From Ancylobacter sonchi (GTDB lineage Bacteria; Pseudomonadota; Alphaproteobacteria; Rhizobiales; Xanthobacteraceae), in NCBI RefSeq assembly GCF_018390695.1, contig NZ_JAHBGF010000028.1:186001-250000 (forward strand): a stretch of DNA of 64,000 nt, given 5' to 3'. Positions 5,308 through 43,891 of this stretch are shown in pieces (the stretch's first letter is position 1; each line of letters begins with the position of its first letter). The notes under the pieces were generated by a model that saw nothing but the letters and a program-made list of their open reading frames with translations, did no database searches and was not told where the DNA came from. The translations under genes and the position numbers were made by a program.

Positions 5308-8300
5308 ACGGCTCTCGATCCCAGCAGCGTGCTGGCCCGCATCAGCGCCGGCGCCGAGAACCCTTCCGTGAAACGCTTATAGATCGGTGCCAGCAGCGGG
5401 CGCACCTCCGGCTCCCGGCCCTGTCTAAGCCAACGCTCTGAAAGGCCCACCGCCGCGCATAACTCCCAGTACAGCGCCTGCTCCTGCCGCGAGAGATCGA
5501 TCGCGCGCAGGAAGACCTGCTCCGCGGCTGGGTCGTCGGGATGGCGCAGAGCGAGGAGCCGGCCATAGATGCATTGCAACTCGGGAACATACTCCAAATA
5601 GTCGGTCTGCTCCGCGCAACTCACCGCCGCTTCGACTTCTGCGAGACCTTCCTCTGTATGGCCCGCAGCGGTCAGCGCCTCGCCGAAATAGCCGCGAAAC
5701 GGCATCAGGAAGGACTGATAGCCGGTGGCCTCAAGCTGGGCCAGGCCTGAGCGCAGCGCCACGACACCGGCGGCGGGCTCGCCCCGCATGGCGAGGGCAC
5801 GCCCCTTCGCACACAGCGCCACGGCGCGGAAGGTTGAGAGCGCGTAGCGGTCCGCCTGCTCCTGAATGGTCGCGATATGACGTTCAGCCCGATCGAGCGC
5901 ACCGATCTCGGGAAATAGCAGGCAGGCCGGTCGAGCCAGCGCCAGGCACAGCGCGACCGGCTGCCCGACAAGCCGGGCCTCTTCCATCGACCGCTCGGCC
6001 GCTCGTATCGCCGCATCGATGAGGCCGCGTGCAAGCAGGCAGGACGACAGATGCCCGTGGGCGGACGCGATCTCGTTGATACCCAGCGATGGTACCTTGC
6101 TACGCCGTGGCGCCAGCGAATGATCGTGGATGGCGCGCTCGAGCAGGCGCGAGGATTCGGCATATTCCGCCAGATAAAGCAGAGACATGCCGACCATGAG
6201 GTCTGCCGTGCGCGCTGGCGCCGGGTCGGTTTCGCTGCGTGCTAGGTCAGCATAGCGTCGGCTGAGTTGCAATGCCTTATGCAGGTCCAGTGAGCGCAGA
6301 TTGATCTGCCAGAGGCTGTGCACCGCGCGTTTCTGGTACTCGACATCCCCGGTAACCTCCGCAAGAGCAAGCGCCTGCGCCAGATTGGTGTAGGTTGCGG
6401 GCGTCATGCCCTCGGTGAACATGAGGGACTGGCCGAGAGCACAGCGCAGGACCATTTCCTGTTCGGCAGTCACCGCGCTATTGAGATTGGCCACGGCCCT
6501 GGCGGTCCAGTCGCTGCACTCGCCCAGCAGCGGCGCGGCCAGCCAGAAGGCGACGGCGGCGGCGGTAAGGGCGACGCCGAGGGTCGTGTCGCCCGAGGTG
6601 GAGAACGCCCAGGACAGCGCCGCACGCAGATTGTCGATCTCGCGGGCGTAACGGGGCAGTTCCTCGGCGCTGATATCCGGATCGGAATTGAAGGTGGCGA
6701 AGAAGTCACGGAAGTACTCCGCCTGCCGGCGCGCTGTAGCGTGTCCGTCGCCGCTGCTGGCGAGCTTGTCCATCGCGTAGGCACGCACGGTCTCAAGCAG
6801 ACGCCAGCGCTCGTCCGCCGTGCTGCGATCAAAGGTGACGATCGACTTTTCGACGAGGCTCGACAGGCAGTCCGCGACCTCGGTCGGGGAATGATCGCAC
6901 ATCACCGCGCACGCCGCCTCGAACGTGAAACCGCCGGGAAAGACCGCCAGCCGATGCAGCAGCCGACGTTCGACCTCCGGCAGCAGAGCGTAGCTCCAGT
7001 CGAAAACCGCGCGCAGCGTCCGATGGCGTGGCAATGCCGTGCGGCGTCCGGTGGTGAGCAGCGCGAAGCGGTTTTCCAGCCCGTCGGCGACGCGGGAGAG
7101 CCCTAAGGAGGTGGAACGGGCTGCGGCGAACTCGATCGCCAGCGGCAGCCCGTCGAGGCGACGGCAAATGCCGGCTATGGAGCGCAAATTCTGCCCGTCG
7201 CGCAGGCCGGCCACATGCGGCGCCTCGGCCAGCCCGAGGAACATCTGCACGGCGCTATTGCTCAGTATCTCGTCCGGCAGCGCGGATTCCTGCTGGGGAA
7301 CATCGAGAGGCGGCACACGATAGACGTATTCGCCGTTGATCCTCAGGGTCTCGCGGCTGGTCGCGACGATGACGGCGTTCGGCGCCAACCGGACGACGGC
7401 TTCTGCCAGCTGCGCCGCCGAGCCGATAAGATGCTCGCAATTGTCCAGCACGAGGAGAAGGCGGTCGTGGCCGATGGCGCGTGCCACACCTTCCGCCGAC
7501 ATCGGGCGGCCATTGGCCTTAAGGCCGATGGCCTCGCCCACGGCGACCGGCACCAGGTTCGGATCGGCCAGCGAGGCCAGCTCCACGAGCCAGACGCCGG
7601 CGTCAAATCGGACGAGAAGGCTGCGCGCCAGTTCCACGGCCAGCGCGGTCTTGCCGATGCCGCCCGGCCCGGTGAGGGTGACGATCCTATAGGCGGAGCA
7701 CGCCTCCTGCAGGAATGCGAAGGAGGCCGCCCGCCCCACAAGGTCGTTCGCGGCGGCGGGCAGATTTGTCGAAGCCATGCTGCGCGGCAGGGAAGGCGGG
7801 GGCGGCGGCGCGCTGGTCGTGTGCACGCTCCATTCGCCGACCAGCCGGAAGCCGCGCCCGGAGATTGTCTTCAGCATGGCCCGGTACGAACCGAGCGCCT
7901 TGCGGATCGCTGATATGTGGACGTCGATGGCAGTTTCGCCGACGGTCGCGCCGGACCAGACGATGTCGAGCAGTTCGCCCCGCGTGACGACTTCGTTGGC
8001 GGCTTGGACCAGCACCGCGAGGATATCGAAGGCCCGGCCGCCGATCGGCACGGCCCCGCGGCGAACGCGCACCTGTCGCAGCAGCAAATCGATTTCGCAT
8101 TCCTCGGAACGGTAGATCGGCTGGCGGTCCGCCGATGTCAGATCGGAGGGCGGCTGCCGAGGGCGCGCCGGATCGGCGTTGATCGCCGCGGACAACAGAA
8201 CCCAGTCGCCGAGCAGCCGATAGCCTTTGCCCGATATGGTTCTCAACAAGGCCCGGTTCACGCCGAGCGCCTTGCGGATCGCGGAAATCTGCACCTGAAG

Positions 8301-32908: not shown

Positions 32909-34630
32909 TCAGCGGATCAGCGGCACGTAATGGTGCGGCTGGCGCATCGCCACCAGATCCTTGCGGCGTACCACATTGGTCGGGTAGGGCGTGTCGAGGT
33001 TGGAGGTATCGACGTCGGTGGCGACCACCCCTTCGCCTTCGCCGAGAATCACCTCGCGGCGCGGGAACTCGAAGGTATCCGGCCCGAACACGCCGCTCTT
33101 GCCGTGATAGCCGGCAGCGGTATCGAGCACGTTGGCGAAGGCGAGATGCACATTGTTCTCGCCGGCGCGGGCGCGCATCAGGTGCCAGTGGTGCGGGTCG
33201 GCGCCGGTGGGGATCGGGTAGTTCTGCGCCACCTTGGAGCCGGCATGCGGCGCGGTGAGGCTGCCGCGCAGCGCCGCCGGGCAGGCGACGAGGTCGCAGC
33301 CGCGCAGCGCCAGCACGCGCCCGGCCTCGGGGAAGGCGGCGTCGTGGCCGATCAGCAGGCCGACGCGTCCGAAAGCGGTGTCGAACACGCCCCACTCCTC
33401 GCCCGGCGTCGCCCAATTGTGGTCGGAGGCGTCGAGATGGGTCTTGCGGTAGCTGCCGATCACCCCCTGCGGCCCGACCAGCACGGCGCTGTTGTACAAG
33501 GCGCCGTCCGCCTCCTCGGCGAGGCCGGCGACGAGATGCAGGCCGTGGCGCGCGGCGATGGCGACCAGCCGGGCGACCGCCGGCCCGTCGAGCCGCTCGG
33601 CGGCGGGGGCGTCGAGCCCGGTGACCGCGCGCTCGGGAAACACCACCAGCTCGGCGCCCTGCTCGCGTGCCGCCTGTCCCGCGAGCTCGTCGATGCGGGC
33701 GAGATTGGCGCCGACGTCACCGGTTGGCGCGAACTGCGCGACGGCGACGCGCGAGCGCCGGCCCGGCGGCAGCGGCCGGTGGCCATACAGCTTGAAGAAG
33801 TCGAGCGGGTTCCAGCTATGGGTGTGGGTCGGCAGCTCCATGTAGAGCTCCGGCCGGCGCTGCTCGAACACCTTCTCGCCGAGCATGCGCCGCTCGCGGG
33901 CGCGTTCGAGGTCGAGCTCGGCATAGGCGACGCCGTCGCCGGAATCGATCACCGCCTCGATGGCGCCGTCCGGGCCGATGACGCAGCTGCCGCCGGAGAA
34001 CTGCACCGTGCGCTCCAGCCCCCAGCGGTTGGCCTCGATCAGGTAGCAGCTGTTCTCCACCGCGCGGGTGATCCAGTAGGGCGCCGGCGTGCGCTCGGCC
34101 AGCCAGTTGGAGATGTGGCAGATGATGTCGGCGCCGCCGAGCCCGGCGAGCCGTGCGGTCTCGACGAAATGGATGTCCATGCACACGAGCATGGCGATGC
34201 GGCCGATCGGGGTGTCGAACACCTGATGACCGAGATCGCCCGGCGCCGACCATTTCGGCTCGGAGATGTAGGGATGCGTCTTGCGGTGGGTGCCGACCAC
34301 GCCCTGCGGGCCGATCAGCACGGCGGCGTTGTAGTAGAGGTTGGTCTGTGCATCGACCTCGGGCATGCCGACGACGATGTAGCAGCCGTGCTGGCGTGCC
34401 ACCGCGGCGAAGCGCTCGGTAGTGGCGCCCGGCACCGGCTCGACGAAGGGGGCGACCTCGTCGCGGTCGAACCAGCAATAGCCGGTGGTGCCCATTTCCG
34501 GCGTCACGATCAGTTTCGCGCCGGCCTGCGCGGCTTCGCCGACCAGATCGAGAAGGCGGGCGATGTTGCGCTCCTTCTCGAACATCGTCGGCTCGAACTG
34601 GACGGTGGCGACCTTCAGCGGGGTGGTCAT
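32909..34630 (-). CDS. Tandem two-domain nitrilase; second domain lacks catalytic Cys
   Basis: A 573-aa protein made of two carbon-nitrogen hydrolase domains. Domain 1 (about 1-270) has the full Glu-Lys-Cys set: Glu45 in TPEMGTTGY, Lys117 in THRKTHPY and Cys150 in LVCMDIHFVE. Domain 2 (about 293-573) keeps Glu333 in FPERAVTGL and Lys396 in SYRKTHLD, but the aligned Cys is Gly428 in LIGHDAAFPE. So one domain should be active and the other is a pseudo-enzyme. ATG at 34630 is used; upstream in-frame codons are shadow. The gene is the last of the amide operon. Activity on nitriles or amides is inferred. Confidence 0.9.
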   Translation of the reverse strand: MTTPLKVATVQFEPTMFEKERNIARLLDLVGEAAQAGAKLIVTPEMGTTGYCWFDRDEVAPFVEPVPGATTERFAAVARQHGCYIVVGMPEVDAQTNLYYNAAVLIGPQGVVGTHRKTHPYISEPKWSAPGDLGHQVFDTPIGRIAMLVCMDIHFVETARLAGLGGADIICHISNWLAERTPAPYWITRAVENSCYLIEANRWGLERTVQFSGGSCVIGPDGAIEAVIDSGDGVAYAELDLERARERRMLGEKVFEQRRPELYMELPTHTHSWNPLDFFKLYGHRPLPPGRRSRVAVAQFAPTGDVGANLARIDELAGQAAREQGAELVVFPERAVTGLDAPAAERLDGPAVARLVAIAARHGLHLVAGLAEEADGALYNSAVLVGPQGVIGSYRKTHLDASDHNWATPGEEWGVFDTAFGRVGLLIGHDAAFPEAGRVLALRGCDLVACPAALRGSLTAPHAGSKVAQNYPIPTGADPHHWHLMRARAGENNVHLAFANVLDTAAGYHGKSGVFGPDTFEFPRREVILGEGEGVVATDVDTSNLDTPYPTNVVRRKDLVAMRQPHHYVPLIR

Positions 34631-34713: not shown

Positions 34714-35703
34714 TCAGCCGAGATACGACTTCAGGATGGAGGCGCCCATCGTGTATTTGGGGTCCACCATGTTGCCGAGGCGCACGCGGCCGCACTGGGT
34801 CAGCAGCATGTAGGCCTCGATCTCGTCGAAGCCGAAATCGGCGGCCATCCAGCGGATCAGGTCGCGATAGGCCATGCGGGTGGCGTCCTCCATCGGGCGG
34901 GTGGAGCCGATCGACATGATGAAGTCCTTGGTCTCCAGCCGCGGCGTGCCGATGGTCCAGCCCTTGATCAGGTCGATCTGCACCGTGGTGACGGTCGGGT
35001 GCTCCAGCGCCACGCCGCACAATTCGCCGTCGCCCTGGGTGGCGTGGCAGTCGCCGAGATAGAGCAGGCCGCCCTTGGTGTTCACCGGCAGGTAGATCAC
35101 CGCGTCGACGCCGACATCGGGCAGGTCCATGTTGCCGCCGTAATAGTCCGGCTGCAGCGAGGTGATCGCCTCGATCTCCGGCGAAGTGCCGATGGTGCCG
35201 ATGAACGGCACATAGGGCAGGGTGAGCTTGTCGCTCCACTTCGTGCCGGTCTCGGCGTCGACATGAAGCTTCTTGACCTTGATCGGCAGCGGCGCGTTCA
35301 GCATCGCCGTGTCCTTGGTCGGTACCAGCCCGCCGAAATCCGGCATGATCAGGGTGGTGCCGACCGGCTGCTCGCCGCGCGGGACGATGCTCTTGATGTA
35401 GACCGCCAGCGTGTCGCCCTTTTCCGCGCCCTCGACGAAGATCGGGCCGTTCTGCGGGTTCAGGTAGGGGAAGTTCAGGATCTCGAGCGGGTTGTCGGTC
35501 TCGTGCTTGATCTTGCCTTCGAAGGCGTCGTGCGTCTCGGCGGCGACCACCGCGCCGGGCTGGACCTTCAGCACCGGCGCGACATAGGGGCCGTACACAT
35601 AGTGGTAGGTGCCCTGCTCCGCCTCGGTGAGGGTGTGGAACGCGCCTTCCTTGCCCTTGGCAAGGCCCTTGCGCGCCATGATGGAGTTTTCGAGCCAGGA
35701 CAT
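34714..35703 (-). CDS. fmdA: Formamidase/acetamidase
   Basis: A 329-aa FmdA/AmdA-family enzyme that hydrolyses short-chain amides such as formamide to the acid and ammonia in the cytoplasm. Typical blocks: GDCHATQGDGELCGVALE, LQPDYYGGNMD and RTPMED-like STRPMEDATRMA. It follows the ABC importer genes with 29 bp spacing, placing it in the amide-uptake operon regulated by amiC/amiR. Confidence 0.93.
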   Translation of the reverse strand: MSWLENSIMARKGLAKGKEGAFHTLTEAEQGTYHYVYGPYVAPVLKVQPGAVVAAETHDAFEGKIKHETDNPLEILNFPYLNPQNGPIFVEGAEKGDTLAVYIKSIVPRGEQPVGTTLIMPDFGGLVPTKDTAMLNAPLPIKVKKLHVDAETGTKWSDKLTLPYVPFIGTIGTSPEIEAITSLQPDYYGGNMDLPDVGVDAVIYLPVNTKGGLLYLGDCHATQGDGELCGVALEHPTVTTVQIDLIKGWTIGTPRLETKDFIMSIGSTRPMEDATRMAYRDLIRWMAADFGFDEIEAYMLLTQCGRVRLGNMVDPKYTMGASILKSYLG

Positions 35704-35732: not shown

Positions 35733-36446
35733 TTAGACGGCGAGATGGCGGCGCATGGCCTCGCCGTCGGCGAGCTCCTCGCGCCCGAGCGCGGCGACGA
35801 TGCGGCCCTTGTCCATGACGTAGCAGCGCTGGGCCATTGCCCGGATCATGTCGATGTTCTGCTCGACGAGGACGACGGTGACGCCGGTATCCTTGTTGAG
35901 CTGGACCATGATGCGGGCGATGTCCTGCACGATGTTCGGCTGGATGCCTTCCGACGGCTCGTCGAGCAGGATCAGCGACGGGTTGGCGACCAGCACGCGG
36001 CCGATGGCGAGCTGCTGCTGCTGGCCGCCGGACATGGTGCCGGCGCGCTGGCTCCAGCGCTCCTCCAGGATCGGGAAATAGCCGAGCACCCGCTTGCGGT
36101 CGGCCTCGGAGACGCCGCCGGACCGGAGGCCGCCTACCGCGATGTTCTCGCCGACGGTGAGGCGCGGGAACACGTCGCGGCCCTGCGGCACGTAGCCGAT
36201 GCCGAGCCGCGCCCGCTTGAAGGCGGTGAGCCCTTCCACCGGGCTGCCCTGATAGACGATGGAGCCGTCCATGGTCGGGACGAGGCCGATCAGGCTCTTC
36301 ATCAGCGTCGACTTGCCGACGCCGTTGCGGCCGATCACCGCGACGATTTCGCCCTCGCGCACCTCGAGGTCGAGGCCCTGCAGCACCGGCTTGCCGCCAT
36401 AGCCGGCCCTGAGGCCGAGGGTGGAGAGCATGACTTCCTTACGCAT
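35733..36446 (-). CDS. Urt/Fmd-type ABC transporter, ATP-binding protein (UrtE-like)
   Basis: A 237-aa LivF-like ATPase with Walker A GRNGVGKST, signature MSGGQQQQLAIGRVL and Walker B LILLDEPSEGIQPN. It resembles UrtE and FmdF. ATG at 36446 has GGGAGGG 5 nt upstream; an upstream frame is a shadow. It overlaps the UrtD-like gene by 8 nt. Confidence 0.9.
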   Translation of the reverse strand: MRKEVMLSTLGLRAGYGGKPVLQGLDLEVREGEIVAVIGRNGVGKSTLMKSLIGLVPTMDGSIVYQGSPVEGLTAFKRARLGIGYVPQGRDVFPRLTVGENIAVGGLRSGGVSEADRKRVLGYFPILEERWSQRAGTMSGGQQQQLAIGRVLVANPSLILLDEPSEGIQPNIVQDIARIMVQLNKDTGVTVVLVEQNIDMIRAMAQRCYVMDKGRIVAALGREELADGEAMRRHLAV

Positions 36447-37194
36447 GGAGCCCTCCCGGCTGCTGATGGGCGGTCGCATGGGCCGTCGTCTGCCCGAGAT
36501 AGATCGCGGCGACGTCCTCATTGGCGACGATGTCGTCGATCGAGCCTTGAGCAAATACCTTGCCGAGATGCAGCACCGTGACCTTGTGGGCGACCTGCCG
36601 CACGAAGGCCATGTCGTGCTCCACCGCCAGCACCGTCATGCCCTCGGCATTGAGGCGCTGGATCATCTCGCCGGTGGCATGGGTCTCTTCCGGCGACATG
36701 CCGGCGGTCGGTTCGTCGAGCAGTAGCAGGCGCGGCTTGAGGCTGATCGCCATGCCGATCTCCAGCCACTGCTTCTGGCCGTGGCTGAGATTGCCGGCCA
36801 GCCGGCCGGCATCGGCGGAGAGGTTGAGGAAGGCGAGCAGCTTGTCGATCTCCTCGGCGAGATGCGCGGGCTCGTAATGGTGCTGCATCGCGATTTCGAG
36901 GTTCTGCCGCACGCTCAGCGCCTTGAAGATGCCCGGCACCTGAAACTTCACGCTCATGCCGCGGCGGATGCGCTGGAAGGATTTGAGCGCGGTGATGTCC
37001 TCGCCGGCGAACAGGATGGCCCCCGAGCTCGGCAGGTGCTCGCCGAGGATCAGCCGGAACAGCGTCGACTTGCCTGCGCCGTTCGGCCCGATGAGGCAGT
37101 GTACCTCGCCGGTCTCCAGCGCGAGGTCGACATTGTTGGTGACGTGCAGGCCGCCGAAGCGCTTGTTGAGGGCCCGGGTCTCGATGAGCGGCAT
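36439..37194 (-). CDS. Urt/Fmd-type ABC transporter, ATP-binding protein (UrtD-like)
   Basis: A 251-aa LivG-like ATPase. Walker A is GPNGAGKST and the signature has the UrtD-typical LSHGQKQWLEIGMAI. The start overlaps the preceding permease stop in TGATG. It forms a heterodimer with the UrtE-like ATPase to energise the amide/urea importer. Confidence 0.92.
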   Translation of the reverse strand: MPLIETRALNKRFGGLHVTNNVDLALETGEVHCLIGPNGAGKSTLFRLILGEHLPSSGAILFAGEDITALKSFQRIRRGMSVKFQVPGIFKALSVRQNLEIAMQHHYEPAHLAEEIDKLLAFLNLSADAGRLAGNLSHGQKQWLEIGMAISLKPRLLLLDEPTAGMSPEETHATGEMIQRLNAEGMTVLAVEHDMAFVRQVAHKVTVLHLGKVFAQGSIDDIVANEDVAAIYLGQTTAHATAHQQPGGLHA

Positions 37195-38270
37195 CACGCG
37201 TCTCCCGGAAGGTTGTTGTTGGCCCGCTTGGTGAAGGGGCGGGCGACGAGCTTGGCGAGCGCCAGGATGAGGCCGCTCGGCGCCAGCAGCACGGTGAGCA
37301 CCAGCATCACGCCCATCACCACCAGCGCGTACTGGCTGCCATGGATGGTGAGCGCCTGGAATACCGCGAGCACGGTGACGGTGCCTATCAGCGTCGTCGT
37401 GAGGTCGGAGCGCCCGCCGACCGCGACCCAGACGATGGGCAAAGCGGCGGCGGTCATGCCCATGCTGGACGGGGTGATGTACTGGCCCCAGCTGGTGTAG
37501 AGCACGCCCGACAGGCCGGCCAGCGCCGCGCCGATGACGAAGGTGCCGAGCTGGTATTTGCGGATGTCGTAGCCGAGCATCTCGGCCCGCTCGGGATTCT
37601 CGCGGATGGCGACCAGTACGTTGCCGAACGGCGAGTTCACCAGAATGCGCAGGCCGAGATAGACGACGACCAGCATGGCGAGCACGACGTAATAGAGCTC
37701 GACGTCGGGGAACAGCACGATGTCGCCGCCGGGCCAGGGCAAAGTGAGTGGCGGCATGTTGCTCATGCCGTTGAAGCCGTTGAGCCGCGCGCTGCCGATC
37801 CGCCATTCCGGGCCGGCGGTCTGCGCCATGAAGCGCTCCAGCACCAGCGTCACCGACAGGGTGACGATGCCGAGGAACACGCCGGAGATCCGCCCGAAGA
37901 ACAGGAAGTAGCCGAGCAGCGCCGCGAACAGCGCCGCGACCGCCACCGCGAACAAAAGCGCCACGAAGGTGAAGCCGTAGGCGGCGCCGAAATTGATGGT
38001 GAGGATGCCGTAGCTGTAGCCGGCGATGCCGAAGAAGGCGGTCTGCCCGAAGCTCAGCGAGCCGCCATAGCCCCAGATCAGGCAGAGGCCGAGCGCCATG
38101 AAGATCCAGGTGAAGAAATACACCGTGTTGCCGACCGTGTAGCCGTCCGAGAACAGCGGATAGGCGCAGGCAGCGGCGAGCGTGACGAGGAAGCCGGCCC
38201 AGAAAAGCGGGCCGCGTCCCAGCGTCTGCGGCCCTTCGAGGCGGCGGAGGAAGCGGGTAAGCGCGTTCAT
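37194..38270 (-). CDS. Urt/Fmd-type ABC transporter, permease (UrtC-like)
   Basis: A 358-aa LivM-like membrane protein. The conserved GYGGSLSFGQTAFFGIAGYSYG and RENPERAEMLGYD segments are present, with about ten membrane segments. It is adjacent to the UrtB-like permease (38290) and overlaps the ATPase start by one base. Confidence 0.92.
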   Translation of the reverse strand: MNALTRFLRRLEGPQTLGRGPLFWAGFLVTLAAACAYPLFSDGYTVGNTVYFFTWIFMALGLCLIWGYGGSLSFGQTAFFGIAGYSYGILTINFGAAYGFTFVALLFAVAVAALFAALLGYFLFFGRISGVFLGIVTLSVTLVLERFMAQTAGPEWRIGSARLNGFNGMSNMPPLTLPWPGGDIVLFPDVELYYVVLAMLVVVYLGLRILVNSPFGNVLVAIRENPERAEMLGYDIRKYQLGTFVIGAALAGLSGVLYTSWGQYITPSSMGMTAAALPIVWVAVGGRSDLTTTLIGTVTVLAVFQALTIHGSQYALVVMGVMLVLTVLLAPSGLILALAKLVARPFTKRANNNLPGDA

Positions 38271-38289: not shown

Positions 38290-39162
38290 TCAGGCGCGCT
38301 CGCGCAGAAGGAAGCCGGAAATGCCGCGCGGCAGCACCCGGATGACGACGATGACGGCCACCAGCAGGCCGATCTGGCCGAAGAGCTGGCCGTACCAGGA
38401 GGTCATGGTGGCCTTCACCACGGCGAGCAGCGCCGCCGCCGGCGCGGTGCCGAGGAAGACGTCGGCGCCGCCGACCACCACGGTGACGAAGGCTTCCATG
38501 ATGAAGGTGGTGCCCATGGTCGGCACCAGCGTCATGGTCGGTGCGTAGAGCCCGCCGGCGAGGCCGGCGAGGCCGGCGCCCAGCGCGAAGGTGAGGCTGT
38601 AGACGCGGCGGGTGTCGACGCCGAGCGCCGCCGCCATGTGCGGCACCTGGATGGTGGCGCGGGCCATGACGCCGAAGCGCGTCCAGTTGAACAGCGCATA
38701 CAGGCCGGCGAGCACCACGATGGCCATGACGAACAGCACGAGGCGGTAGAGCGAATAGGAATAGGCGCCGACCTGGAAGCTGCCGAACGGCGTGCCGACG
38801 CCGGCCATGGTAGAGCCGAGCAGGATCAGCGTGCCCTGGGTGCCGATCAGGCTGAGGCCCCAGGTGGCGACGATGGTGTCGAGCGGCCGGTCGTACAGAT
38901 GCCGGACCACGACGATCTCCACCAGCGCGCCGACCATGCCGGCGACCAGCGCGCCCAGCACGATGGCCAGCGGCAGCGGCAGGCCGGCATGGGCGGCGGA
39001 GACGGTGACATAGGCACCGCACATGATGAATTCGCCATGGGCGAGGTTGATCACGCCCATCATCCCGAAGATGACGGCGAGCCCGCAGGCGGACAGCACC
39101 AGGAAGGCGAAGGCGTCGCCGAACTGGTAGAGCGCGGAGAAGGCGAGGGTTCCGACATCCAT
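38290..39162 (-). CDS. Urt/Fmd-type ABC transporter, permease (UrtB-like)
   Basis: A 290-aa LivH-like permease with about eight helices. GVINLAHGEFIMCGAYVT is the family signature. ATG at 39162 fits; the longer frame begins with a basic shadow. It lies 19 bp from the UrtC-like gene. Shorter than the 500-aa UrtB of cyanobacteria, as in Fmd systems. Confidence 0.9.
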   Translation of the reverse strand: MDVGTLAFSALYQFGDAFAFLVLSACGLAVIFGMMGVINLAHGEFIMCGAYVTVSAAHAGLPLPLAIVLGALVAGMVGALVEIVVVRHLYDRPLDTIVATWGLSLIGTQGTLILLGSTMAGVGTPFGSFQVGAYSYSLYRLVLFVMAIVVLAGLYALFNWTRFGVMARATIQVPHMAAALGVDTRRVYSLTFALGAGLAGLAGGLYAPTMTLVPTMGTTFIMEAFVTVVVGGADVFLGTAPAAALLAVVKATMTSWYGQLFGQIGLLVAVIVVIRVLPRGISGFLLRERA

Positions 39163-39193
39163 CGGCGAAGCGGCCTTGTGCTGGAAGGAAAGG

Positions 39194-39244
39194 GTTGCCC
39201 CGGCCCTCTCTCTTTCGAGATCGGAGGGGGTCGGCCGGGGCAAC
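39194..39244 (-). promoter_or_regulatory. Strong hairpin between binding-protein and permease genes
   Basis: GTTGCCCCGGCC and GGCCGGGGCAAC are perfect 12-bp arms, extended by CCCTC/GAGGG inside. It fills the 176-bp gap between the binding-protein and permease genes. As there is no U-tract it probably limits read-through or protects the upstream message. Confidence 0.65.
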
Positions 39245-39338: not shown

Positions 39339-40589
39339 TCAGGGCTTCGGCGGCGGGTTCGAGGGCGTGTACTGCGCGCTCGGGTCGCTCTTGGTCAGGT
39401 CGCAGCCGGCTTCGCCGAGCCAGTACGGCTTGATGTCCTGCCAGACCTTCGGGAAGGAGATCGAGTGATCCTCGCCCACCTTCGCCAGGTAGATGGTGTG
39501 CGACATGTGCTGGCTCTTGGGATCGAGGCAGACCTTGCCTTCCGGCGCGTCCATGCAGACGTCGCCCTTGGCGATCTCCTTGCGCAGGTCCTCGCGCTTG
39601 GTCGACTTCGCCCGCTCCACCATCTGCTTGTACAGATAGACGGCGAGGTAGGAGTTCTCGGCTTCCTGGTTCACATAGGGCTCGTCGGGGAACATCGCCT
39701 TGAACTTGGCGAAGAACGCCTTGGAGGCCGGGCTGTCGATTTCCTCGATGTAGTTGGTGGTGACGTACATGTCCTTGAGCGACGGCGGCTTGAAGCGCTT
39801 GTGCTCGTAGCCCTGGCCGACATTGACCGAGGAGGCCATCGGCAGGTTCACGCTGGCGGCGGCGGCCTGCTCGTAATAGGAGGCCTGCGCGGTGCCGACC
39901 AGCAGCGTCACCACGAAGTCGGGCTTGGCCTTCTGGATGTTCTGGATGTTCTGCGAGAACTGGGAGACGCCGAGCGGGATGAAGTCCTCGCCGACCATCT
40001 CGCCGCCGTGCTCCTTGACGATGTTGCGCACCCATTCGGCGGAGATCTGGCCGAAATTGTAGTCGGCGGCGAGCGTGTAGACCTTCTTGCCGTACTTCTC
40101 CATCATCCACGGGATGAGGGTGGAGAACTGCTGCTCGGGCACCGCGCCGGTGACGATCATGTTGGCGTCGCAGACGCCGCCTTCATACTGGTTGTTGTAG
40201 AAGGCGAGCCCGTCGAACTGGTTGACGATCGGGCGATAGGCCTCGCGCGAGGCCGAGGAGAAGCCGGCGAACACCGCGTCGACCTTGTCGCGCTGGAGCA
40301 CGCGGCGCATGAACTCCTGATAGCGGGTGTTGTCGGACTGGGTGTCGTAGATCACCAGTTCCAGCGGGCGGCCGTCGATGCCGCCGGCCTTGTTGATCTC
40401 GTCGGCGGCGAGCTGGATGGCGTGCACCTTGCCGATGGTGGCAGCGGCGAAGTCGCCGGACTGATCCTCGAGCACGCCGAGCTTGATCGGATCGGCGGCC
40501 AGCGCGGGGGTGAGGCTGTGGGCGGCGCCGAGCAAAAGCGTCCCCGAGAGGGCTGCGGCACGCAGCCCCCGCATGGTCTTCCCAGTCAT
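39339..40589 (-). CDS. Amide/urea ABC transporter, periplasmic binding protein (FmdD/UrtA-like)
   Basis: A 416-aa Peripla_BP_6 protein with signal peptide (AAALSGTLLLGAAHSLTPALA). The N-terminal GVLEDQSGDFA and the FYNNQYEGG block resemble FmdD, UrtA and the AmiC fold. A C-terminal VCMDAPEGKVCLDPKSQH segment with two Cys may form a disulfide. It is the first transport gene of the operon after amiR, with 19 bp spacing. Confidence 0.9.
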   Translation of the reverse strand: MTGKTMRGLRAAALSGTLLLGAAHSLTPALAADPIKLGVLEDQSGDFAAATIGKVHAIQLAADEINKAGGIDGRPLELVIYDTQSDNTRYQEFMRRVLQRDKVDAVFAGFSSASREAYRPIVNQFDGLAFYNNQYEGGVCDANMIVTGAVPEQQFSTLIPWMMEKYGKKVYTLAADYNFGQISAEWVRNIVKEHGGEMVGEDFIPLGVSQFSQNIQNIQKAKPDFVVTLLVGTAQASYYEQAAAASVNLPMASSVNVGQGYEHKRFKPPSLKDMYVTTNYIEEIDSPASKAFFAKFKAMFPDEPYVNQEAENSYLAVYLYKQMVERAKSTKREDLRKEIAKGDVCMDAPEGKVCLDPKSQHMSHTIYLAKVGEDHSISFPKVWQDIKPYWLGEAGCDLTKSDPSAQYTPSNPPPKP

Positions 40590-40608: not shown

Positions 40609-41268
40609 TTATCGTCTTTCCGCGCTATGTCCGATGAGGCGCGGTTGCGTCGTCTGGCCGGAAATGCCGGCCCGCTTCTTCATGAAGGCTTCGCAATAGT
40701 CTTCGAGGCTCTGCCGCGAGCGCATGCTTTCGCGGCGAAGACATTCATAGGCTTCGTCGTCATCGACGCCCGCATCCTGCATGTGGGCGATGATGGCCTT
40801 CACCACCGCGCGGCGTCCGCGCCGGCGGCGATCCATGTCGTCGAGCCGCGCCCGGAGGTCGCCGCGCAACAGGAACTGGTTGATGCCGAGGAACAGGGCG
40901 GTGTAGACGGCGGCGCCCTGCACCGGCTTGCGCAGGAACGCCGTCGCCCCGAGATTGACGAGGTGCTTCAATCGGCTCGGCGCCTCGACCCCGACGAGGC
41001 CGATCACCGGCACCGGCGGCTGGCGCGAGCCGGCGTCGATGTCGAGGGCGAGCGGGTTGTCGAGGTCGCCGTCGACGAACAGGATGTCGCGCTCGGCCTG
41101 AAGCGTGGCCGGGTCGAGGTCGGCGCGCCCGTCGATCAGGGCGGGGAAGCTGGCACTCACCCCGAGCTTGCCGAGCGTGACGTGCAGCGCCTCGACGGCG
41201 GTGGGGTTGGACGTGACGATATGCGCCCGGCCGCCGTTGAAGTTCTGGAGCAGTCGTGGGGCCATCAC
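40609..41268 (-). CDS. amiR: ANTAR-domain antiterminator AmiR
   Basis: A 219-aa protein with an atypical receiver domain (DILFVDGDLDNPL but not the normal phospho-acceptor set) and a C-terminal ANTAR helix bundle (RRAVVKAIIAHMQDAGVDDDEAYECLRRESM). AmiR binds RNA hairpins to prevent termination. Its start overlaps the amiC stop by 4 nt, so AmiC and AmiR are translated together, which fits the known complex. It probably acts on the terminator at 42428-42466. Confidence 0.9.
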   Translation of the reverse strand: MMAPRLLQNFNGGRAHIVTSNPTAVEALHVTLGKLGVSASFPALIDGRADLDPATLQAERDILFVDGDLDNPLALDIDAGSRQPPVPVIGLVGVEAPSRLKHLVNLGATAFLRKPVQGAAVYTALFLGINQFLLRGDLRARLDDMDRRRRGRRAVVKAIIAHMQDAGVDDDEAYECLRRESMRSRQSLEDYCEAFMKKRAGISGQTTQPRLIGHSAERR

Positions 41269-42413
41269 TTCACCACCTTCAGCGACGTGTTGCGGGGAGC
41301 GACTGCATAGCGCGGCGAGGACTGCACGAGATAGGGGTCGGGCCGCACCGGTCCGGGGGCCTCGACGAGGACGTCGAAGCGCGCGGCGGCGGTGGAAATG
41401 CCGATGCGCGGCGTGAGATAGGCGTGCAGCGTCTGCGGGTCGATGCGCACCTCGCCCTGCGGGGCGAGGAGATGCTGGCGCGTCGCCGCGTCCTTCACCG
41501 CCTCGACGTCGTCGGTACCGGCATCCGCCAGCGCGAGGATCAGCAGCTTCATCGCGATATAGGAGGCCTCGGCGTCGGCCGAGGAGGACGGGCCGCCCGG
41601 GAAGAGCTCGCGATAGGCGCGGGTGAAGGCGAGGCTGGCCGGCGATGAGAGCGAGGAGAAGTACACGCTGGAGCTCAGGTGTCCGTCCACCGCCTCGGCG
41701 CCGATCTCTTCCAGCTCCGGCTCCGACAGAGTGCAGCTCGCCACCGGGATGACGCGCGGCTGATCAATGCCGCGGGCGAGGCAGGCGGAGCGGAAGGCGC
41801 GGAAGAAGGCGTAGTTGCTGGTGCCGATGAGGTTGTTGAACACGAAGCTCGGGCGCGCCTCGAGGATCGCCTCGACCACCTGGTCGAACTCGGTGTCGCC
41901 GACCGGGACATAGCGCTCGGCCAGCACCCGCGCGCCGCGCGCCATCATCGCCTCGCGGAAGATGCGGGTGTTCTCCCACGCCCAGATGTAGTTGGAGCCG
42001 ATGCAGAAGGCGCTCGAACCGACATGCGCCAGCATGTGGTCGACCAGCGGCAGCACGTGCTGGTTCGGCGAGGCGCCGGTGTAGATGACGTTGTTGGAGC
42101 TCTCGAAGCCCTCATAGTGCGAGGGGTACCACAGCAGCGCGTCATGCTTCTCGAAATAGGGGATCACCTCCTTGCGGCTGGAGGAGGTGTAGCAGCCGAC
42201 CACGTGGCGGATGCCGGACTGCAGCAATTCGCGGCTGAGCTCGGCATAGCGCGTGAGCTCGCCGCCCGGATTGACCACCACTGGCTCGATGGTGACACCG
42301 GGCGCCGCCTGCTCGGCAACCGCCAGCAGCGCTCCGTTCAGCATGGAATGCGGAACGACGCTGTAGGGTCCCGTGGTCGAGAACATGACCCCTATGCGGT
42401 AGTGCTTCGACAC
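41265..42413 (-). CDS. amiC: Amide-sensing regulator AmiC (negative regulator of AmiR)
   Basis: About 382 aa, the same length as Pseudomonas AmiC. A Peripla_BP_6 fold without a signal peptide: RIGVMFSTTGPYSVV, LLWYPSHYEGFESS and ASPNQHVLPL match AmiC. It sequesters AmiR when no amide is bound. GTG at 42413 is used, with CGGAGCG 7 nt upstream; an earlier in-frame ATG (42524) would lie inside the leader. First coding gene of the amide operon. Confidence 0.9.
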   Translation of the reverse strand: MSKHYRIGVMFSTTGPYSVVPHSMLNGALLAVAEQAAPGVTIEPVVVNPGGELTRYAELSRELLQSGIRHVVGCYTSSSRKEVIPYFEKHDALLWYPSHYEGFESSNNVIYTGASPNQHVLPLVDHMLAHVGSSAFCIGSNYIWAWENTRIFREAMMARGARVLAERYVPVGDTEFDQVVEAILEARPSFVFNNLIGTSNYAFFRAFRSACLARGIDQPRVIPVASCTLSEPELEEIGAEAVDGHLSSSVYFSSLSSPASLAFTRAYRELFPGGPSSSADAEASYIAMKLLILALADAGTDDVEAVKDAATRQHLLAPQGEVRIDPQTLHAYLTPRIGISTAAARFDVLVEAPGPVRPDPYLVQSSPRYAVAPRNTSLKVVK

Positions 42414-42427
42414 TCTGCGCTCCGACC

Positions 42428-42466
42428 AAAACAAAAAGCGCCCGCCGGTCGATTGACCGTGGGCGC
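42428..42466 (-). terminator. Leader terminator (attenuator) of amiC-amiR-urt operon
   Basis: On the minus strand GCGCCC...CGGT-CAATCG-ACCG...GGGCGC forms a two-part stem followed by TTTTTGTTTT. It lies 15 bp before the amiC ribosome site, so default transcription would stop in the leader. The 5' arm's GGCGCC (42462-42467) can pair with an identical self-complementary GGCGCC at 42498-42503, giving a rival antiterminator fold. This is the classical target for AmiR. Confidence 0.75.
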
Positions 42467-42484
42467 CTTTGCCACCAACCCGCA

Positions 42485-42502
42485 GCACCTCAGGACAGGC
42501 GC
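42485..42502 (-). promoter_or_regulatory. Upstream leader hairpin, candidate ANTAR RNA target
   Basis: On the minus strand GCGCCT-GTCCTG-AGGTGC forms a 6-bp stem (one G-U pair) with a hexanucleotide loop, 18 nt before the terminator hairpin. ANTAR proteins typically bind a tandem pair of hexaloop hairpins, with the second overlapping the terminator, which fits the spacing. The usual A1/G4 loop bases are not seen in either loop. Confidence 0.5.
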
Positions 42503-42589
42503 CGTCGTTGGAAATGTTCACCAAATTGCCGCGACATTAGGCATCCTTGCCCGTCGCTCGTTTCTTAGGCTCGCGTGAAGTCGCCTTTT

Positions 42590-42595
42590 TGTCAA
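42590..42595 (-). promoter_or_regulatory. Candidate -35 element of the amiC leader promoter
   Basis: A minus-strand TTGACA (preceded by GC, giving the alphaproteobacterial CTTGAC) lies about 180 bp upstream of amiC. A matching -10 is weak. It would place the start near 42555, so the leader would be about 140 nt and include both hairpins. Independent transcription from the sigma-factor operon above is not excluded. Confidence 0.4.
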
Positions 42596-42643: not shown

Positions 42644-43891
42644 CTATGGGGCGTCGCGCAGCCCGTCGAGATGGCTGCGTATGTGCGCTGCCTCCGCCGC
42701 GGTGCCGGCGAGGCCGATCGCGGTCATGAAGCCGTCGCGCGCTTCCCGTGTCCGGCCGAGCTGCATCAGCAGCGCGCCGCGCAGGCCGTGATAGTGGAAA
42801 TAGCCGGCCAGCCTGTCGCCGAGCGGCTCGACCATGGCGAGCGCCGCTTCCGGCCCGCGCAGTTTGGCGACCGCCACCGCGCGGTTCAGCGTCACCACCG
42901 GCGAGGGCTGCATGATCTCCAGCGTGCCGTAGAGCAGGTCGATCTGCGCCCAGTCGGTCTCCTCCGGCGTCGGCGCCCGCGCATGCAGCGCGGCGATCGC
43001 CGCCTGCACCTGGTAGGGGCCGGGCCGGCGGTGGCGCATCGCCTTGTCGAGCAAAGCGAGCCCTTCGGCGATCATCGGCCGGTTCCAGAGACTGCGATCC
43101 TGCTGGTCGAGCAGCACTGGCGCGCCGTCGGCGTCGAATCGGGTGCCGGCGCGGGCGTGCTGCAACAGCATGAGCGCGGCGAGCCCCATGATCTCCGGCT
43201 CGGCGGGGAACAGCCGCAGCAGCAGCCGGGCGAGGCGGATCGCCTCCTCGCATAGCGGCTCGCGGGCGCCGGAGGTGTCGCCGGCGGCGGAATAGCCCTC
43301 GTTGAACACGAGGTAGATCATCGCCGCCACCGCGCCGAGCCGCGCGGCGCGCTCCACCGCGCCCGGCGACTCGAACGGCACGTCTGCGCGGCCGATGCGC
43401 GCCTTGGCGCGGGTGATGCGCTGTTCCATCGCCGCTTCGCCGACCAGGAAGGCGCGGGCGATCTGCTTCACGCTCAGGCCGGAGACGATGCGCAGCGCCA
43501 GCGCGATCTGCTGCGTCGCCGGCAGGTCCGGATGGCAGCAGATGAACAACAGCCGCAGCACGTCGTCGCGATAATCCGCGCCGTCCAGCCGCTCGGCGAT
43601 CTCCGCCTCGGCGTCGCCGGTGTCGGAGATGAGGTCGTCCGGCGGCAGCTCGGTCTGCTTTGCCCGGCGGCGCACCGAATCGAGCGCCACGTTGCGGCCG
43701 ACGAACACCAGCCAGGCGGCGGCATCGCGCGGCGGGCCGTTCTGCGGCCAGGTCCGCAGCGCCCGCAGGCACGCCTCCTGGTACGCCTCCTCGGCGAGAT
43801 CGAGGTCGCGAAAATAGCGCAGCAGCGCGGCAAGCGCCTGCGGGCGCGCGGCGGCAAGGGTGGTGCCGATCCAGCGCGCCTCGTCCATCAC
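42644..43891 (-). CDS. ECF-type sigma factor, ECF42-like with C-terminal helical extension
   Basis: A 415-aa RNA polymerase sigma factor. Region 2 is DLDLAEEAYQEACLRALRTW and region 4 has LSVKQIARAFLVGEAAMEQRITRAKARI. The last 200 residues form a helical TPR-like extension typical of the ECF42 group, which lacks an anti-sigma factor and is encoded with DGPF/YciI proteins. It overlaps the YciI gene by 4 nt. Translational coupling suggests joint control. Confidence 0.9.
   Translation of the reverse strand: MMDEARWIGTTLAAARPQALAALLRYFRDLDLAEEAYQEACLRALRTWPQNGPPRDAAAWLVFVGRNVALDSVRRRAKQTELPPDDLISDTGDAEAEIAERLDGADYRDDVLRLLFICCHPDLPATQQIALALRIVSGLSVKQIARAFLVGEAAMEQRITRAKARIGRADVPFESPGAVERAARLGAVAAMIYLVFNEGYSAAGDTSGAREPLCEEAIRLARLLLRLFPAEPEIMGLAALMLLQHARAGTRFDADGAPVLLDQQDRSLWNRPMIAEGLALLDKAMRHRRPGPYQVQAAIAALHARAPTPEETDWAQIDLLYGTLEIMQPSPVVTLNRAVAVAKLRGPEAALAMVEPLGDRLAGYFHYHGLRGALLMQLGRTREARDGFMTAIGLAGTAAEAAHIRSHLDGLRDAP

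Follow-up and report, generated by a model that had tools for sequence, protein, structure and literature searches.

How transcription passes the terminator-bearing leader of an amide operon is the question raised by the DNA analysed here (the window, a stretch of 64,000 nucleotides), whose source is an Ancylobacter close to strain Lp-2, with an AmiC that is 99% identical. The first-pass annotation had placed a promoter element, a hairpin and an intrinsic terminator 5' of amiC, and had proposed that AmiR brings about antitermination there through pairing between two copies of GGCGCC. As judged from its sequence and relatives, the leader is very probably a canonical ANTAR dual-hexaloop antitermination switch, in which two hairpins, P1 and P2, are separated by a linker spaced by a hairpin of its own. 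This type of switch is already known, and what is new here is the hairpin-spaced linker.

The amide operon and its leader

The amiC and amiR genes lie directly downstream of the leader, as had been annotated, and homology marks them as a sensor/ANTAR pair: the gene of an ANTAR protein comes after that of an AmiC-like binding protein, and the operon includes an amidase (FmdA_AmdA domain). The closest solved structures to AmiC are those of P. aeruginosa AmiC (1qnl/1pea, E 3.6e-66), and the amiR product matches P. aeruginosa AmiR (1qo0_D, E 1.1e-4) and a response regulator (6wsh, E 0.0057) that was assigned to EutV from residues. AmiR_N scored 26.1 in amiR, slightly below its cut-off of 27, an NCBIfam search found no model above cut-off for AmiC or AmiR, and the NCBIfam FmdA model gave the fmdA-like gene 66.8, far under the cut-off of 500. 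The nine-gene order noted earlier, amiC-amiR-urtABCDE-fmdA-CN hydrolase, holds and is collinear in 12 of the 15 genome stretches having amiC; the exceptions are L129, with no CN hydrolase detected, and L128 and L130, which carry amiC-amiR-fmdA and no adjoining Urt operon. A terminator-like hairpin, GGGGCGCCGGACGCCCC followed by TTTCTT (34668-34652, minus strand), stands between fmdA and the CN hydrolase gene and, weak as it is, may reduce CN hydrolase expression. Directly 5' of the leader, on the same strand, is a sigma-factor-like gene with DUF6596 (42644-43891, minus strand).

Table 1. Positions of the leader elements and operon genes in the window, and of the nitrile hydratase leaders at other loci
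Feature	Sequence	Position	Strand	Remarks
TTGACA, -35 element	Window	42595-42590	-	Read in the sequence
GAGCCTAA, likely -10 region	Window	42572-42565	-	From the sequence
P1 hairpin	Window	42557-42531	-	GCGAC/GTCGC + GGGC/GCCT stem, 3-nt bulge; folding, covariation
P1 hexaloop AAGGAT	Window	42548-42543	-	A1 and G4 present
Unpaired linker part	Window	42530-42512	-	19 nt (20 including 42474)
Spacer hairpin CCAAC...GTTGG	Window	42511-42475	-	Stops 1 nt short of P2; folding, covariation
P2 hairpin GGC[AAAGGC]GCC, likely antiterminator	Window	42473-42462	-	Loop 42470-42465, A1 and G4
Intrinsic terminator	Window	42470-42428	-	Stems 42466-42461/42443-42438 and 42459-42455/42450-42446; T tract 42437-42428
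amiC, amide sensor	Window	41265..42413	-	GTG start; PF13433/PF13458
amiR, ANTAR antiterminator	Window	40609..41268	-	PF03861, 37.2 bits against cut-off 27.3
UrtA-like binding protein	Window	39339..40589	-	TIGR03669, 620 bits, above cut-off
Two importer permeases	Window	38290-39243, 37194-38270	-	Urt-type
Two importer ATPases	Window	36439-37806, 35733-36554	-	ORF limits, starts approximate
fmdA-like acetamidase/formamidase	Window	34714..35703	-	PF03069
Tandem CN-hydrolase gene (nitrilase/amidase superfamily)	Window	32909..34620	-	PF00795, two stretches; approximate start
Nitrile hydratase leader	L158	629-721	+	R2; part of the R2 model; alpha subunit by Pfam, in L158 only
Nitrile hydratase leader	L104	5497-5589	-	R2
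Nitrile hydratase leader	L109	5631-5723	-	R2
Nitrile hydratase leader	L112	5624-5716	-	R2
Nitrile hydratase leader	L076	5605-5696	-	R2
Nitrile hydratase leader	L103	677-789	-	R2
Nitrile hydratase leader	L093	5601-5709	-	R2, weak: 17.1 bits, E 0.11

The TTGACA-like promoter element seen earlier is present, and a TTGAC stands 47 nt 5' of the P1 loop in 68 of 78 related leaders; because a TTGAC within 25-75 nt upstream was a condition for choosing these leaders, it is only its constant spacing that carries information. The two hairpins that the first-pass annotation overlooked, P1 and P2, each have a stem of at least 3 bp (P1 backed by covariation, P2 by conservation only) and a hexaloop with A at position 1 and G at position 4 (A1 and G4), although ViennaRNA pairs A1 with U6 in the P1 loop, which is then drawn as a tetraloop. 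P2 overlaps the 5' arm of the intrinsic terminator: its 3' arm and loop end are that arm (42466-42462 are common to both), and P2 and the terminator are mutually exclusive for this reason. The ANTAR reading is supported by PMC3369931, where the ANTAR target is described as two A1/G4 hexaloops, the second of which (P2) lies in the arm of the terminator.

The terminator, annotated at 42428-42466, is borne out by a strong fold of the stretch 42472-42428 (z -4.96, none of 200 shuffles being equally stable); simple pattern scans missed it, and folding and covariation over 39 sequences recover it. The stretch 42558-42467, which holds P1 and the linker hairpin, is not unusual against shuffles (z -1.16, 24 of 200 equally stable), and an Rfam scan of the window found no leader family, the only match at gathering threshold being a tRNA. 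The 6-bp hexaloop hairpin annotated at 42485-42502 exists, but as the inner part of a longer hairpin with CCAAC/GTTGG outside, 8 bp inside and a loop, GTCCTG, that lacks A1 and G4. Between P1 and P2 the raw linker is 57 nt, or 20 nt minus the hairpin (counted in strain Lp-2, with identical geometry in the window). Such a linker fits the first definition of ANTAR targets, in which its length is variable (PMC3369931), and fits the later curation rule of 2-25 nt for actinobacteria (PMC8164766) only once the hairpin is folded; searches that require 2-25 nt would overlook hairpin-spaced leaders.

P1, P2, the terminator, their overlap and conservation, the spacer geometry and the gene order are all observed, and a sequence of events can be proposed on this ground. 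The sigma-70-type promoter would yield an RNA starting at about P1. With no amide, AmiC would retain AmiR, the terminator would form and transcription would end near 42428. Amide would free AmiR, which would then bind P1 and afterwards P2, and P2, by capturing the 5' arm of the terminator, would allow readthrough into the nine genes. The spacer hairpin, by folding most of the 57-nt linker, would leave P1 and P2 about 20 single-stranded nucleotides apart. That the leader switches the operon as a whole is likewise inferred. Homology, leader anatomy and conservation all give good support to antitermination by AmiC and AmiR, as first proposed, but the pairing mechanism offered for it is unsupported.

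Conservation of the two loops and rival readings

A genome scan gave 209 AmiC relatives, of which the best 80 were kept, and at all 80 loci an AmiR match lies downstream of amiC. A parser blind to the loop letters, after corrections by hand (L080 and L101 were reset, and P1 of L060 and L101, having 7-nt loops, was omitted), placed P1 in 78 of 80 and P2 in 78 of 80, with no P2 at L110 and L113. At the 39 loci outside the Bradyrhizobium/Rhodopseudomonas/Tardiphaga clade, A1 and G4 of P1 are both found in 39/39, and P2 has A1 in 33/37 and G4 in 36/37. Within the clade (41 loci, among L054-L101) the two loops of the ANTAR motif diverge separately: P1 keeps its stem and A1 (38/39), with G4 in 15/39 and lost from 24/39, and P2 keeps G4 (36/41), with G at position 1 in 39/41 and A1 in 2/41. 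Position 4 of the P1 loop has undergone at least 10 letter changes on a quick AmiC tree. This clade, in which P1 loses G4 and P2 loses A1, bears on the requirement for each loop. A change of AmiR K157R together with P2 A1-to-G in the clade amounts to about one event on the tree and was set aside as no proof. Loops of 7 nt occur in P1 of L060, L101 and L155 (AACGGTT, AACGGCT and AAAGATC). Twelve more distant AmiC loci were read by eye, and eight have no recognisable complete P1-P2 pair; L149 is doubtful, L155 and L156 are imperfect, and L030 has P1 and P2 and no terminator. L152 and L153 have a lone P2-like hexaloop, GGC[AATTGC]GCC and GGC[ATCGGA]GCC respectively, 5' of a terminator-like hairpin, and no P1 upstream of these two distant AmiC genes could be made out by eye.

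The folding and covariation suggested as a check of the leader were carried out on 39 leaders (the window plus 38 of 73 distinct ones, with near-duplicates and leaders lacking the CCAAC hairpin excluded), and they uphold the terminator, P1 and the outer spacer stem. The P1, outer spacer and terminator helices are paired in 97.9% of 975 cells, a level reached by none of 500 shuffles, and 12 pairs show two-sided changes; the outer 5 bp of the spacer hairpin are paired in 100% of cells. P1 and the terminator also covary in ten leaders without the CCAAC hairpin. The 3-bp stem of P2 is invariant (39/39), so covariation can say nothing for it and its support is confined to conservation and overlap.

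At the positions aligned with the RNA contacts of EutV, the 80 AmiR proteins have R142 in 80/80, R or K at K143 in 80/80, K or R at K147 in 79/80, D or E at E160 in 80/80, Y at Y164 in 76 (F in 4) and M172 in 80/80, and K149, which contacts G4 in EutV, is replaced by I, V or T in 80/80. According to PMC8934654, Y164 of EutV is the residue on which G4 stacks, and the protein makes no contact with A1. On this analysis, these contacts fit the freedom at position 1 of P2 but not the loss of G4 from P1 in the Bradyrhizobium clade.

Other accounts of the terminator have to be set against this record. GGCGCC does occur twice, at 42503-42498 and 42467-42462, and it had been supposed that the copy in the 42485-42502 hairpin pairs with the one in the terminator arm and so opens the terminator. 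Both copies are shared by the window and strain Lp-2, but this nearest strain is the only one of 78 related leaders to have both (37 have the arm copy and five the linker copy), and 12 of 13 Ancylobacter rows have GACGCC in the arm instead. As GGCGCC is self-complementary, the hairpin's own pairing would compete, and six Methylobacterium leaders keep P1, P2 and the terminator with no stable linker hairpin; pairing of this kind is most improbable. The structure might also be read as the usual terminator of the sigma-factor gene upstream, or as a fixed terminator under no regulation, which would suit the fact that this gene shares the strand of the leader. This reading is nonetheless highly unlikely, given that the TTGAC element keeps a near-constant distance 5' of P1, that the upstream gene is divergent in Skermanella and that several leaders stand back to back with another. 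Ribosome-mediated attenuation can also be imagined, as the window reads ATG CCT AAT GTC GCG GCA ATT TGG TGA from the ATG in P1 (42544-42542), which would be a leader peptide. Only 24 of 78 leaders, however, have an ATG within or next to the P1 loop, and the probable start of transcription lies about 14 nt 5' of the ATG, which would leave scant room for a ribosome site; attenuation is very improbable.

A folded linker between P1 and P2

Linkers were counted wherever P1 and P2 had both been placed (76 loci), and they range from 19 to 74 nt, a hairpin being called stable at -2 kcal/mol or better; the position given to the outer P1 stem is that of best pairing, a choice that shifts the count by 1-2 nt. 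Eight leaders without a stable hairpin (six Methylobacterium, Chthonobacter and one MAG) have linkers of 19-27 nt, and the 68 with one have linkers of 32-74 nt. Removal of the largest hairpin leaves 17-24 nt in 61 of the 68, and this hairpin ends no more than 1 nt from P2 in 66; length and position agree in 60 of 68, against a mean of 2.45 and a maximum of 7 in 100 shuffled sets. Among the exceptions are six leaders whose predicted fold is out of register, so that 10-12 nt remain, and Azospirillum, with 50 nt. With the main hairpin folded out, natural linkers of 19-74 nt mostly come to nearly the same length. Because most hairpin linkers belong to one CCAAC lineage with a common ancestral hairpin, these 61 of 68 are by no means independent cases. 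More independent support, when only the largest hairpin is removed, comes from the unrelated hairpins, which leave 20 nt in Mesorhizobium, 22 in Hansschlegelia and Chelatococcus (whose hairpins are alike), 18 in Xanthobacter, 21 in a Beijerinckiaceae MAG and 24 in Kaistia dalseonensis.

In 17 of the 68 linkers, folding predicts additional hairpins (a second or a third), most of them weak, and 16 of these 17 five-prime linker parts fold alone at -0.1 to -2.7 kcal/mol, Azospirillum being the exception. After removal of every hairpin, 17-24 nt are left in 45 of the 68 linkers (median 18, range 2-22), against a shuffled mean of 8.2 and maximum of 16; a second weak hairpin would leave 8 nt in Mesorhizobium, 4 in Chelatococcus, 6 in the MAG and 12 in K. 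dalseonensis. This recount weakened the linker-length figures and left our estimates of likelihood unchanged; they had already been set on a lineage-bound sample.

From its sequence and geometry, the linker hairpin looks like a spacer that holds P1 and P2 at a set distance. That it is instead a functional element, such as a pausing signal or a third site of protein contact, is unlikely, though by a smaller measure than the readings above: CCAAC/GTTGG and the preceding ATTTCC are almost invariant in the 39 aligned leaders, and the spacer hairpin of Xanthobacter has an A1/G4 hexaloop, ACAGAC. The eight leaders without a stable hairpin, and others with unrelated hairpins, nevertheless retain a similar length, and among the second leaders of these genomes, seven of which have a linker of 23-25 nt, five of those seven lack a stable hairpin. 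In full, the Xanthobacter hairpin (L104/L105) reads CGGG[ACAGAC]CCCG. Among the best-ranked titles and abstract openings in the open-licence PMC literature, no hairpin-spaced ANTAR leader was found, and the same titles and openings showed neither an ANTAR leader 5' of nitrile hydratase nor this leader in Rhizobiales.

Related systems and second leaders

The amiE leader of P. aeruginosa likewise has an AmiC sensor, an ANTAR AmiR, dual A1/G4 hexaloops and P2 at the base of the terminator, as described in PMC3369931. In contrast to it, the Ancylobacter leader lies 5' of amiC rather than amiE, and the operon behind it codes for a Urt-type importer, an FmdA-like amidase and a CN hydrolase; the long linker in Ancylobacter is folded as a hairpin, the amiE linker lying outside the comparison. 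The eut leaders of Enterococcus faecalis, with EutV and EutW, share the dual hexaloop, antitermination and most of the RNA-contact residues, but EutV/EutW is controlled by phosphorylation and the eut linkers are 5-12 nt, with 14 nt cutting induction strongly (PMC3369931) and an additional 20 nt abolishing antitermination in vitro (PMC8934654). The NasS/NasT and NasR leaders (nas, nos) are also ANTAR antitermination systems of nitrogen metabolism (PMC6759348, PMC5424462), but their signal is nitrate, and the linker of a candidate NasT site in the Ancylobacter genome is only 1 nt long.

Ten leaders lacking the CCAAC hairpin (L158 included) served to build model R2, which was run on 33 loci and found divergent leaders 5' of nitrile hydratase beta genes at seven distinct sites adjoining amiC-amiR (Table 1), L128 and L130 repeating the Xanthobacter and G165 sites. 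An eighth divergent leader is a weak candidate (18.2 bits, E 0.06) before other genes in Mesorhizobium (L097), and at L093 and L097 no clear terminator with a T tract was seen. Among these eight, P1 has A1 in 7/8 and G4 in 8/8, and P2 has both in 8/8, letters that R2 itself favours. Their linkers are 23-25 nt in seven of eight, the Azospirillum linker being 45 nt with 24 outside a hairpin. At the threshold of -2 kcal/mol, five of the eight linkers lack a stable hairpin, and the weak ones of L076 (-2.8 kcal/mol) and L104 (-2.1 kcal/mol), should they be real, would leave 10 and 6 nt. Nitrile hydratase produces amides, and these leaders suggest that its induction by amides can run via antitermination.

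Six genomes (Chelatococcus, Hansschlegelia, K. dalseonensis, Xanthobacter, the Beijerinckiaceae MAG and Mesorhizobium) pair a hairpin-spaced amiC leader, with 18-24 nt left, with a divergent leader that has a linker of 23-25 nt in all. The presence of long folded linkers and short plain ones within one genome makes a distance rule, and the model of P1 followed by P2, testable. In the window's own genome, distances are about 20 nt for the amiC leader, 1 nt for the NasT candidate and 4-5 nt for a second AmiC/AmiR system, the latter two by eye. It is a tentative idea, and more doubtful than probable, that ANTAR leaders measure the P1-P2 distance with hairpins of any sequence as rulers, that this distance (about 20 single-stranded nt for the AmiR family studied here) is a specificity code insulating co-resident ANTAR regulators with similar loops, and that one AmiR switches both amidase and nitrile hydratase operons by way of leaders with equal effective spacing.

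Leader model R1, which was itself built from many of the species searched or close ones, matched 38 of 198 family genomes at E <=0.001 and 28 at E<1e-5, the leader being found at E<1e-5 in 27 of the 28 family genomes that have an AmiC match of at least 62% identity. The remaining genome, G188, has AmiC and no R1 match, its locus being L030, where P1 and P2 were read by eye with a 23-nt linker and no terminator. Ten family genomes gave weak R1 matches only (E 4e-5 to 8e-4). Across the class, 10 of 289 genomes matched, namely the window's own genome and nine weak ones (E 2.9e-4 to 0.0099). An apparent relic in G167 (L148) consists of a leader at C1:2252995-2253114 (minus strand) followed by a cut-off amiC start of the first codons, and the rest of the operon is absent from the 18 kb examined around it. 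Within the window's own genome, R1 has one strong site, the amiC leader (1.1e-27), with ten weaker ones from 0.043 to 8.2, and R2 at E up to 1 finds the amiC leader alone.

Two further ANTAR loci in this genome were noticed. At L115, about 7770-7800 on the plus strand, a candidate NasT target, GCCC[AGCGAT]GGGT, 1 nt, GCAGC[AAAGCC]GCTGC, comes after NasT/NasS-like ORFs that were named by reading, and no T-tract terminator was seen there. L114 (C13:548000-567000, minus strand) holds the second AmiC-like/ANTAR system, with Urt-type genes and amidase-like and urease-like ORFs, the gene names coming in part from reading the ORFs. It has two candidate leaders, one 5' of amiC2 and one in the amiR2-urtA2 gap, with linkers of 4-5 nt, terminators, and GCCGAA and TAGGTA as P2 loops.
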